Below are positions 5,042 to 41,154 of a stretch of DNA of 64,000 bases, in pieces. The notes below the pieces were generated by a model. It was not told the origin of the DNA. It saw only the letters and a program-made list of their open reading frames with translations, and ran no database searches. The stretch lies in assembly GCF_011059185.1 (NCBI RefSeq), contig NZ_JAALFE010000001.1, positions 62,001 through 126,000 on the forward strand. The letters are read 5' to 3'. The stretch's first letter is position 1. Each line of letters opens with the position of its first letter. The stretch comes from Paragemmobacter kunshanensis. GTDB taxonomy: Bacteria; Pseudomonadota; Alphaproteobacteria; Rhodobacterales; Rhodobacteraceae. The position numbers and the translations under genes are program-made.

Positions 5042-5135
5042 GAGAGGTTGGCGCGGGCGAGCGCCTCGCCAACCCGGTCAGGACCGGAAGGTAGCAGCCG
5101 TAACGAGCCCCGCTTGGGTCGTTGTCCAGCCTCTC
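5042..5135 (+). ncRNA. ffs: Signal recognition particle RNA (4.5S-like, small bacterial type)
   Basis: The universally conserved SRP domain IV loop is present: GGTCAGGACCGGAAGGTAGC at about 5076-5095, followed by AGCCGTAACGAG. The ends close a long hairpin, with GAGAGGTTGG (5042-5051) pairing to CCAGCCTCTC (5126-5135). About 94 nucleotides fits the small bacterial SRP RNA that binds Ffh and targets nascent membrane proteins to FtsY. Position just upstream of dnaX and ybaB-recR is common in bacteria. No protein is needed in the 160 bases between the RNA and dnaX. The exact mature ends are uncertain by a few bases. Confidence 0.95.
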
Positions 5136-5294
5136 ACCCTTTCCCCTGCCTTCGCCTGAATGGGGCGCGCCCTCTCGCGCCGGGCATTCCCCTCCACCTG
5201 GCGCAGCACACCATCCGGATCGCCCTGCGGCCCACCATCGACCTTGCCCTGACTTCCCCAGTCGCACTAGGTTGGACCCGATCAAGGAGCGACC

Positions 5295-12030: not shown

Positions 12031-12237
12031 ATGCAGGTCAGCGTCCGCGACAATAACGTCGAACAGGCACTCCGTGCCCTGAAGAAAAAGCTCCAGCGCG
12101 AAGGCGTTTTCCGTGAAATGAAGCTCAAGCAGCATTTCGAGAAACCGTCCGTCAAGAAAGCGCGCGAGCAAGCCGAAGCGGTCCGCCGTGCGCGCAAACT
12201 CGCGCGCAAGAAGGCGCAGCGCGAAGGCGCTCTCTGA
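12031..12237 (+). CDS. rpsU: 30S ribosomal protein S21
   Basis: 68 residues, starting [20 protein letters not shown] and ending in a very basic helix ([17 protein letters not shown]). S21 binds the 30S subunit near the anti-Shine-Dalgarno region and helps initiation. Length and sequence are typical of alphaproteobacteria. The ATG is preceded by GGAAGGTGGTGAC. It is a single-gene unit closed by a strong hairpin terminator 40 bases downstream. Confidence 0.97.
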
Positions 12238-12475: not shown

Positions 12476-12596
12476 CCGATTTCTGACGCAGAAATCGGGG
12501 CGAAATCTGACGCAGATTTCGCTTGGCGGCGGTGCGCTACGGAAGGGGCCCGAAATCTGCGTCAGATTTCGGGACGGAATTTGCGTCAAATTCCGT
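12476..12596. repeat. Cluster of four TGACGCA-core hairpins, 2+2 mirrored
   Basis: Four near-perfect palindromes with three-base loops. H1 12476-12498 has arm CCGATTTCTG and loop ACG. H2 12500-12522 has arm GCGAAATCTG and loop ACG. H3 12549-12573 has arm CCCGAAATCTG and loop CGT. H4 12574-12596 has arm ACGGAATTTG and loop CGT. The centre TGACGCA is invariant, while the arms differ between copies but always pair with themselves. H3 and H4 are in reverse orientation to H1 and H2, with a 26-base spacer between the pairs. The same layout recurs at 34207-34352. Function is unknown; it resembles bacterial interspersed palindromic elements. Confidence 0.85.
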
Positions 12597-12642
12597 TTTG
12601 CGCGGAAGTGGGGGCGTCGGGAATGGCGGGGTGAACCCCGCC

Positions 12643-13104
12643 CTACACGGCCAGCGCGGTGGTCTGGACCACAGTCCGCAGCGCGAAGGAGGAATGCATC
12701 TGCCGCACGCCGGGCAGGCGCGACAGATACTGGCGGTGGATGCGGGCGAAATCCTCGGTATCCTGCGCCATGATCTTGAGCAGGTAATCCGCCTGCCCCG
12801 CCATCAGATGACATTCCAGGATGTCGGGGATGCGCGCCACCTCGCGTTCGAAGGCATCGAGCAACTCGTCGGCCTGGCCCTGCAGGGTGATTTCCACATA
12901 GACCGTCGTCGGGCGGCCAAGGCGGCGCGGATCGAGCAGGGCCACGTAACGGGCGATGAAGCCCTCTTCCTCTAGCCGCTGGGTGCGGCGGTGGCAGGCC
13001 GAGGGCGACAGGTTCACCCGTTCCGACAAATCGGCATTGGTGATGCGGCCTTCCTTCTGCAGGACGGTCAGGATGCGGCGGTCGGTTGCGTCGAGTTCGG
13101 ACAT
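12643..13104 (-). CDS. Lrp/AsnC family regulator, probably of alanine dehydrogenase
   Basis: 153 residues. N-terminal winged helix-turn-helix (LDATDRRILTVLQKEGRITN, then LSERVNLSPSACHRRTQRLE) and a C-terminal RAM ligand-binding domain (about residue 65 on, with ECHLMAGQADYLLKI). Lrp/AsnC regulators sense amino acids and often control a divergent neighbour. Here that neighbour is ald, 157 bases away, so the AldR role (alanine-responsive activator) is likely. The intergenic space has AT-rich patches suitable for Lrp binding, but I cannot define an operator. Confidence 0.9.
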   Translation of the reverse strand: MSELDATDRRILTVLQKEGRITNADLSERVNLSPSACHRRTQRLEEEGFIARYVALLDPRRLGRPTTVYVEITLQGQADELLDAFEREVARIPDILECHLMAGQADYLLKIMAQDTEDFARIHRQYLSRLPGVRQMHSSFALRTVVQTTALAV

Positions 13105-34206: not shown

Positions 34207-34352
34207 GCGGTTTCTGACGCAGAAACCGCGACGGAATTTGACGCAAATTCCGGGCCCCTGTCGTCGCGCTTCCCGTCCTGCCACCCCTTGGGCGGCAGGA
34301 CGGTCCGATTTCTGCGTCAGAAATCGACGCGGAATTTGCGTCAAATTCCGCG
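34207..34352. repeat. Second TGACGCA hairpin cluster, 2+2 mirrored with central GC hairpin
   Basis: H1 34207-34229 has arm GCGGTTTCTG and loop ACG. H2 34232-34252 has arm CGGAATTTG and loop ACG. A different hairpin (arm CCGTCCTGCC, 34273-34303) occupies the middle. H3 34306-34326 has arm CGATTTCTG and loop CGT. H4 34328-34352 has arm CGCGGAATTTG and loop CGT. Order and orientation repeat the cluster at 12476-12596, and arm types are shared between the clusters. It lies between the 5' end of the exporter gene and the 3' end of phaB. Confidence 0.85.
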
Positions 34353-41076: not shown

Positions 41077-41154
41077 AAGATTTTTCACCGAAAAATCTTG
41101 CCCTGCTCTGCCTCGGCAGAGCATCACGAAAAATTTTCACTGAAAATTTTTCGT
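41077..41154. repeat. AT-rich hairpin pair around a GC hairpin before lysA
   Basis: Hairpin A 41077-41099 (arm AAGATTTTTC, loop ACC), hairpin B 41104-41123 (arm TGCTCTGC, loop CTCG) and hairpin C 41126-41154 (arm ACGAAAAATTTTC, loop ACT, 13 perfect pairs). A and C share the centre TTTTCAC(C/T)GAAAA but differ in the outer arms. The layout, similar hairpins flanking a GC hairpin, echoes the clusters at 12476 and 34207 with a different core. It fills most of the gap between the DUF2834 gene and lysA. Confidence 0.8.

Follow-up and report, generated by a model that had tools for sequence, protein, structure and literature searches.

A REP-like palindromic repeat of unusual architecture in Paragemmobacter kunshanensis, under selection to form separate hairpins at the 3' ends of genes

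Forty years after REP-like repeats became known, opinion is still divided between parasites and gene-end devices. REP, BIME and REPIN elements are described, in the available parts of two papers, as short, extragenic, multi-copy palindromes that occur as inverted pairs with unrelated spacers and may form hairpins in ssDNA or mRNA (PMC3116915, PMC2817692). CGTC-tagged REPs of Alphaproteobacteria have stems of 8-9 bp, loops of 4-5, an unpaired CGTC at one end and a CCA-like tail according to the available text of PMC3733652, in which Rhodobacter and Rhodobacterales are not named. These elements have no dedicated transposase and form inverted dimers with spacers of 20-100 bp, heterodimers often being preferred over homodimers (PMC3733652, same portion). 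The accessible part of PMC12306157 describes ribosome stalling in E. coli at REPs located no more than 15 nt from a stop codon, which by its count make up ~11% of REPs.

The DNA analysed here (the window) was a stretch of 64,000 nucleotides from P. kunshanensis; the 4.46 Mb genome containing it is denoted G000. A sequence-only reading of the window had reported four palindromes at 12476-12596, and these were confirmed as perfect, two on the plus strand followed by two on the minus strand, with core spacings of 24, 50 and 24. P1 occupies 12476-12498 (+; CCGATTTCTG-ACG-CAGAAATCGG, stem 10, loop 3) and P2 12500-12522 (+; GCGAAATCTG-ACG-CAGATTTCGC), its core 24 bp past that of P1. P3 lies at 12549-12573 (-; CCCGAAATCTG-CGT-CAGATTTCGGG, stem 11) and P4 at 12574-12596 (-; ACGGAATTTG-CGT-CAAATTCCGT). 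The halves are separated by a spacer at 12523-12548; the spacers of other arrays differ from it in sequence and length. Each of P1-P4 folded alone, both as RNA and as ssDNA, and each doublet gave two separate hairpins. The array region folded better than 200 of 200 shuffles (z -7.1). Because the arms of P2 and P3 are the same in this copy, it can also pair P2 with P3. The genes on either side were identified as the reading had named them and are convergent: rpsU, for ribosomal protein S21 (12031-12237, +; PF01165), lies 238 bp upstream of P1, and the 3' end of the Lrp/AsnC regulator gene (12643-13104, -; PF01037) is 46 bp from P4. A canonical terminator of rpsU's own is present in the same gap as the array.

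Two other elements were recorded in the window. A GTAG-type REP, GTAGGGCGGGGTTCACCCCGCC, is present in exact form at 12625-12646 (-; 0 mismatches, 0 expected). Because it lies on the lrp stop codon, the TAG of its GTAG tag is the lrp stop. Related stretches recur in the genome, though no RAYT was detected above cut-off. A small SRP RNA gene is present at 5042-5138 (+; RF00169); it was the only Rfam match above the gathering score in the window, and no family was found for the palindromes. Rfam searches of five loci returned only tmRNA models and, again, no palindrome family.

A second array with the same 2+2 build lies at 34207-34352. Its first doublet (34207-34252, +) comprises palindromes at 34207-34229 and 34232-34252, and its inverted doublet (34306-34352, -) comprises palindromes at 34306-34326 and 34328-34352; a short-chain dehydrogenase gene has its stop codon 11 bp from this doublet. 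The window contains 20 copies of TGACGCA, compared with 7.8 ± 2.7 in 100 shuffles (largest 15), and 8 of the 20 copies are the centres of the two arrays. The core pattern WTYTGACGCARAW gave 87 matches in G000 and its reversed control 0. It was matched in all 19 genomes of the genus, 7 to 134 times each (two control matches in total); the five genomes with 7 to 12 matches are not distinct from the rest of the family. Two of 295 family genomes belong to this genus (G000 and G018), and the other 293 held 0 to 26 matches, the highest counts outside the genus being 26 (G294), 19 (G288) and 15 (G277). Named carriers among the matches listed were 'Rhodobacter' (now Paragemmobacter) amnigenus, R. ruber, Gemmobacter straminiformis and Tabrizicola sp. 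TH137, and similar units were listed for Aestuariivita boseongensis. Other species carry the palindromes and arm pairing is kept in relatives, so that neither outcome named by the reading as refuting it occurred. Searches of plasmid and phage collections with the palindromes gave no match. The TGACGCA palindrome family was unnamed in the literature searched (open-access only, mostly listings). In R. capsulatus, TGACGCAGA is part of FnrL sites (available text of PMC4634722), which were set aside as another motif.

The anatomy of the repeat was compiled from a set of 472 palindromes that came from G000, G010 and the named contigs. Two 9-10-bp hairpins at 24-bp pitch make up a doublet, and the unit consists of one doublet, a spacer and a second doublet in inverted orientation. 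The stem reads 5'-CG-NNNNN-TG, loop, CA-N'N'N'N'N'-CG, with most of the variation confined to pairs 3 to 7. TG...CA is fixed in this set because the palindrome caller requires it. Pair 8 is G in 448 of 472 palindromes and pair 9 is C in 452, so, contrary to what had been proposed, the heptamer is not the only common part; the outer pairs are nearly fixed too. Nor is the TGACGCA centre invariant: the loop is ACG in 348 palindromes, ACA in 44, GCG in 33 and CACG in 22. The variable 5-mers are 76% AT, against 35% in the intergenic DNA of the window, and A and T may come in any order within an arm (both AAATC and TTTTC are common). Doublet pitch (n=221) was 24 bp in 198 cases, 25 in 15 and 23 in 8. 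Where an array showed only three palindromes at first, a fourth with a four-base loop was often present. By eye, the spacers of 37 arrays of G000 (8 to ~110 bases) share no common sequence, and several hold a GC-rich hairpin of their own.

The arms are strongly selected for self-pairing, and it seems to be the folding that is kept and not the letters. Between the sister species G010 and G011, 10 of 1764 stem sites (0.57%; 98 palindromes) had changed, compared with 772 of 14574 third codon positions (5.3%), 275 of 7746 sites elsewhere in intergenic DNA and 56 of 671 spacer and linker sites between palindromes. The loop drifts at a near-neutral rate (15 of 301 sites changed, 13 of the 15 by transition). 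This comparison left out the array at L199 near 7716, which did not align. The stem changes were one-sided, and therefore unpaired intermediates occur but do not persist. When doublets were picked solely by the presence of two cores at 24-bp pitch, pairing was perfect at all 7 free pairs in 357 of 424 palindromes; dealing the 3' arms among the palindromes gave a mean of 47 and a maximum of 68 in 500 deals. An alignment of 55 doublets (990 cells) had 99.7% of its cells paired and 203 of them two-sidedly changed. The covariation score was 0.560, against 0.150 ± 0.011 for shuffled and at most 0.275 for slid alignments. Across relatives, orthologous doublets showed 92 distinct two-sided pair changes and 22 one-sided ones, counted with core-only detection and with 34 halves not comparable; a caller that favours perfect stems gave 82 and 9, with 41 unequal arrays excluded. 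The proposed selection on the folded form is borne out by these counts. The palindrome-binding protein offered beside it fares worse, as a reader of double-stranded DNA leaves the complementarity of the variable arms unexplained.

Mismatched cells in 124 distinct palindromes were G-T in 12 cases, A-C in 15 and other in 17. An apparent strand-specific bias (A-C 24, G-T 8) was discarded, as it was gone once repeated sequences had been removed (15 and 12). Two-sided changes were of transversion type in 52 cases and of transition type in 40. With no sign of G-U tolerance and an excess of transversions, this differs from the pattern of an RNA stem that evolves through G-U. It fits a DNA hairpin, a need for the RNA of both strands, or replacement of whole arms en bloc.

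Adjacent hairpins must carry unlike arms. Identical variable five bases in neighbouring palindromes were found in 0 of 221 doublets, where 24.0 ± 4.2 were expected and 2000 shuffles never gave fewer than 9. Doublets differing at a single pair were also too rare (14 versus 35.4 expected). Among 83 complete arrays, P1=P2 and P3=P4 were both absent (8.7 and 8.0 expected). Identity was rare for P2=P3 (3 versus 14.7) and P1=P4 (5 versus 10.4), about twofold in excess for P1=P3 (20 versus 10.6) and slightly so for P2=P4 (11 versus 6.7); such arm-identity counts overstate the number of events because orthologous copies across species are not independent. The 2+2 organisation that had been read as a mirrored unit is present in relatives, but mirrored arms are avoided. 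A nested cross-pairing structure between the two cores of a doublet was paired at 68.5% of cells, below 500 of 500 shuffles. The lack of like neighbours could instead arise if identical direct or inverted repeats are unstable and get lost.

The units sit at the 3' ends of genes, where many abut the stop codon or provide it, in agreement with the location first suggested. With genes called by codon usage, 120 of 128 arrays lay between called genes, 1 overlapped a gene and 7 were at contig edges. The 120 comprised 62 in tandem, 45 in convergent and 13 in divergent gaps; all gaps of at least 60 bases in the fetched DNA of G000 and G010 numbered 119, 49 and 60, respectively. In tandem pairs the 3' end of the upstream gene was the nearer to the array in 55 of 62 (p 2.4e-10), and the array was within 15 bases of that end in 41 of 62 (random in-gap placement 10.1, maximum 21 in 5000 draws). 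In convergent gaps the nearest stop was within 15 bases in 42 of 45, against 26.3 expected (maximum 35). The outer-core TGA was the gene's stop codon in 15 cases, and a TAG ending at the stem edge in 13. Canonical terminators were present near arrays in 21 of 46 convergent gaps and in 33 of 96 gaps without either element (no depletion, p 0.20); the latter set is not wholly clean, as L161 visibly holds a decayed TTCGAA-type doublet. That terminators are not depleted beside arrays speaks against the array being a terminator as such.

At these gene ends relatives carry unrelated hairpin pairs, and two sister species are set apart by an exchange of this kind. At the rsmB-type gene end, nine relatives carry a doublet such as CAAAATCCTTCGAAGGATTTTG-CAAATTTCTTCGAAGAAATTTG (TTCGAA type), G000 carries a TGACGCA array and G018 two TGACGCA palindromes. 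Of 31 arrays in G010, 29 aligned to an array in G011 and one more was matched (L340). The remaining one is the exchange (L199/L201), in which a TGACGCA 2+2 array in G010 and an unrelated TTCGAA doublet in G011 lie exactly between two stop codons, with flanks 98.4% and 96.4% identical. G006 and G003 have TTCGAA doublets in seemingly the same flanks (by eye). Two G011 loci were without a partner among the G010 loci compared. At the end of the FAD-oxidase gene facing tmRNA (15 rows compared), full TGACGCA arrays were found in G000 and G002 and partial ones in G001 and G015. Other palindromes were present there in G003, G006, G008, G010, G011 and G018 and a single one in G017; none was marked in G004, G005, G013 and G014. 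At L341, L344, L346 and L349, which represent this tmRNA-facing gene end, the place of the G000 array is taken by sets of two to four long, AT-rich palindromes whose cores are different. At the short-chain dehydrogenase gene end, G000, G018 and G002 have an array, and other relatives, judged by eye, a GC hairpin with a T run.

TTCGAA-type doublets also avoid identical neighbours (0 versus 7.8 expected, n=37). They were found in 20 of 295 family genomes with two mismatches allowed, and a looser single-palindrome pattern matched 19 of 19 genus genomes at 2 to 44 sites (control matches in one genome). Counts of the two types over the 19 genomes showed no significant anticorrelation (rho -0.20, p 0.41). 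In the window, AT-rich palindromes GATTTTTC-ACC-GAAAAATC and ACGAAAAATTTTCACTGAAAATTTTTCGT flank a GC-rich hairpin at 41077-41154 (+), 11 bp behind a gene, and are perhaps a third gene-end hairpin family. AT-rich palindromes with the core TTCTGCGAA or TTCGCAGAA, some of them paired, were seen in the convergent gaps L245 near 10321, L184 near 353 and L301 near 1098.

We infer that the molecular role of the array is that of a barrier at the 3' end of the message or at the end of translation, or else of a DNA hairpin. The reading we prefer, at a probability of about 0.45, is an intergenic REP-like family whose working unit is the doublet of independent hairpins at fixed pitch, serving as a message-end barrier. 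A transcript running off the gene would form a pair of separate, neighbouring hairpins immediately past the stop codon. The pair would then act as a barrier to 3' exonucleases after Rho-dependent termination, to the terminating ribosome, as reported for stop-proximal REPs of E. coli, or to both. The unlike arms would prevent neighbouring hairpins from pairing together. With the asymmetric TGACGCA loop, a doublet plus an inverted doublet would let transcripts from either side meet the same hairpin order, whereas with the symmetric TTCGAA core one doublet would be enough. Such a barrier, acting from either direction, is suggested by position, symmetry and separate folding. Dispersal of the copies must have happened at some time, and may have proceeded by some mobile or recombination process in the past. 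Several observations stand against a message-end barrier: mismatches give no indication that G-U is tolerated and two-sided changes lean to the transversion type, 13 of the 120 placed arrays are in divergent gaps with no annotated 3' end there, canonical terminators are as frequent beside arrays as elsewhere by the test above, the counts of the TGACGCA and TTCGAA types lack a significant anticorrelation, the 2+2 form is retained in tandem gaps where only one direction of transcription is known, P1=P3 identity is in excess, and the avoidance of like neighbours could also come from repeat loss. A broader form of the idea, a structure-only gene-end signal, is tentative and the less probable of the two. 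It would consist of two adjacent, mutually non-pairing hairpins with almost free letters, so that unrelated families (TGACGCA, TTCGAA and others such as that at 41077-41154) interchange, and it would depend on loop symmetry if a single doublet suffices or an inverted one has to be added.

The copies may instead be selfish or symbiotic mobile palindromes of REP/REPIN kind, whose ssDNA hairpins are recognised by a lost, different or rarely acting transposase and whose pairing is selected for copying. This account is possible, though we favour it distinctly less than the message-end barrier. It is consistent with multi-copy intergenic occurrence at 7-134 matches between species of the genus and patchily in the family, with reading frames that enter the element and take their stop from it, and with a recent gain of an array at one site (G010/G011). 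The lack of a G-U preference fits ssDNA hairpins, and complementary mutations have been reported in REPs elsewhere (available part of PMC2817692). It is opposed by the failure to find a Y1 transposase above the Pfam cut-off in any of 19 genus genomes, by the single array in 31 that differs in kind between sister species, by avoidance of the mirrored-arm pattern expected of REPINs and by the absence of plasmid or phage matches; an unsystematic look noticed no gene bounded by two half arrays. A hairpin or cruciform acting at the level of DNA, as a supercoil sink or a nucleoid, gyrase or recombination site and confined to gene ends because promoters cannot tolerate one, would account for strict Watson-Crick pairing with no wobble preference, for the AT-rich 5-mers, for the arrays in divergent gaps and for the loop transitions, which are expected of exposed single-stranded loops. 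It requires neither the doublet spacing nor unlike arms, however, and distances to the stop codon are far below random placement in the same gap; we consider it unlikely. Ordinary intrinsic termination agrees with the 3'-end location and with the GC hairpin and T run that replace the array at the relatives' short-chain dehydrogenase end, but arrays lack a T run, the A/T order in their arms is free, rpsU is followed by a canonical terminator of its own in the array's gap and terminators near arrays are not depleted, which makes this explanation very improbable.

Constraint can be measured at these loci, where pairing is kept, adjacent arms are unlike, the loop drifts and one hairpin family can stand in the place of another at the same stop codons. 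The question of parasite or gene-end device thus becomes testable at single sites.

The arrays resemble REP, BIME and REPIN elements, as these are described in the available texts, in being multi-copy and extragenic, with inverted pairs, unrelated spacers, complementary palindrome changes and possible hairpins in ssDNA or mRNA. They differ in that the palindromes are perfect whereas REPs are imperfect, and in that the unit is a direct doublet at 24-bp pitch plus an inverted doublet. The two halves avoid mutual pairing, whereas REPINs, according to the same sources, form one long hairpin; an inverted pair of REPIN type was rejected, as P2/P3 and P1/P4 share arms less often than expected. Among the features of REPs and REPINs, multi-copy extragenic palindromes were thus found, and tag, transposase and long hairpin were not. 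By eye, no GTAG-like tag was common in the flanks of the G000 arrays. The RAYT partner envisaged at the outset did not appear: PF01797 gave 0 of 19 genus genomes above cut-off and one sub-threshold match in G006 (21.3 bits), in a search in which positive controls were detected in 5 of 14 genomes. A MITE with terminal inverted repeats was rejected because spacers are unrelated (by eye) and mirrored arms avoided, and the intrinsic-terminator class because the variable arms are AT-rich and the listed flanks have no T run. The CGTC-tagged REPs, as far as the available text of PMC3733652 describes them, share with the arrays alphaproteobacterial occurrence, stem length, lack of a dedicated transposase, inverted dimers, unlike partners and spacers. 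In our arrays, by contrast, CGTC is apical (TGCGTCA), loops have 3 or sometimes 4 bases and direct doublets are the rule (compare PMC3733652, same portion). Assignment to that class was rejected on the apical CGTC and on the alternative structure between cores, which scored below all shuffles. As with the stop-proximal REPs of E. coli described in the accessible part of PMC12306157, a hairpin lies directly behind the stop codon; there this holds for ~11% of REPs, and here for most arrays at gene ends. Since the tag, transposase and long hairpin of RAYT-associated REPs and REPINs and the tag of CGTC-REPs were all missing, the arrays are best placed as a REP-like family of new architecture that is a member of neither group.
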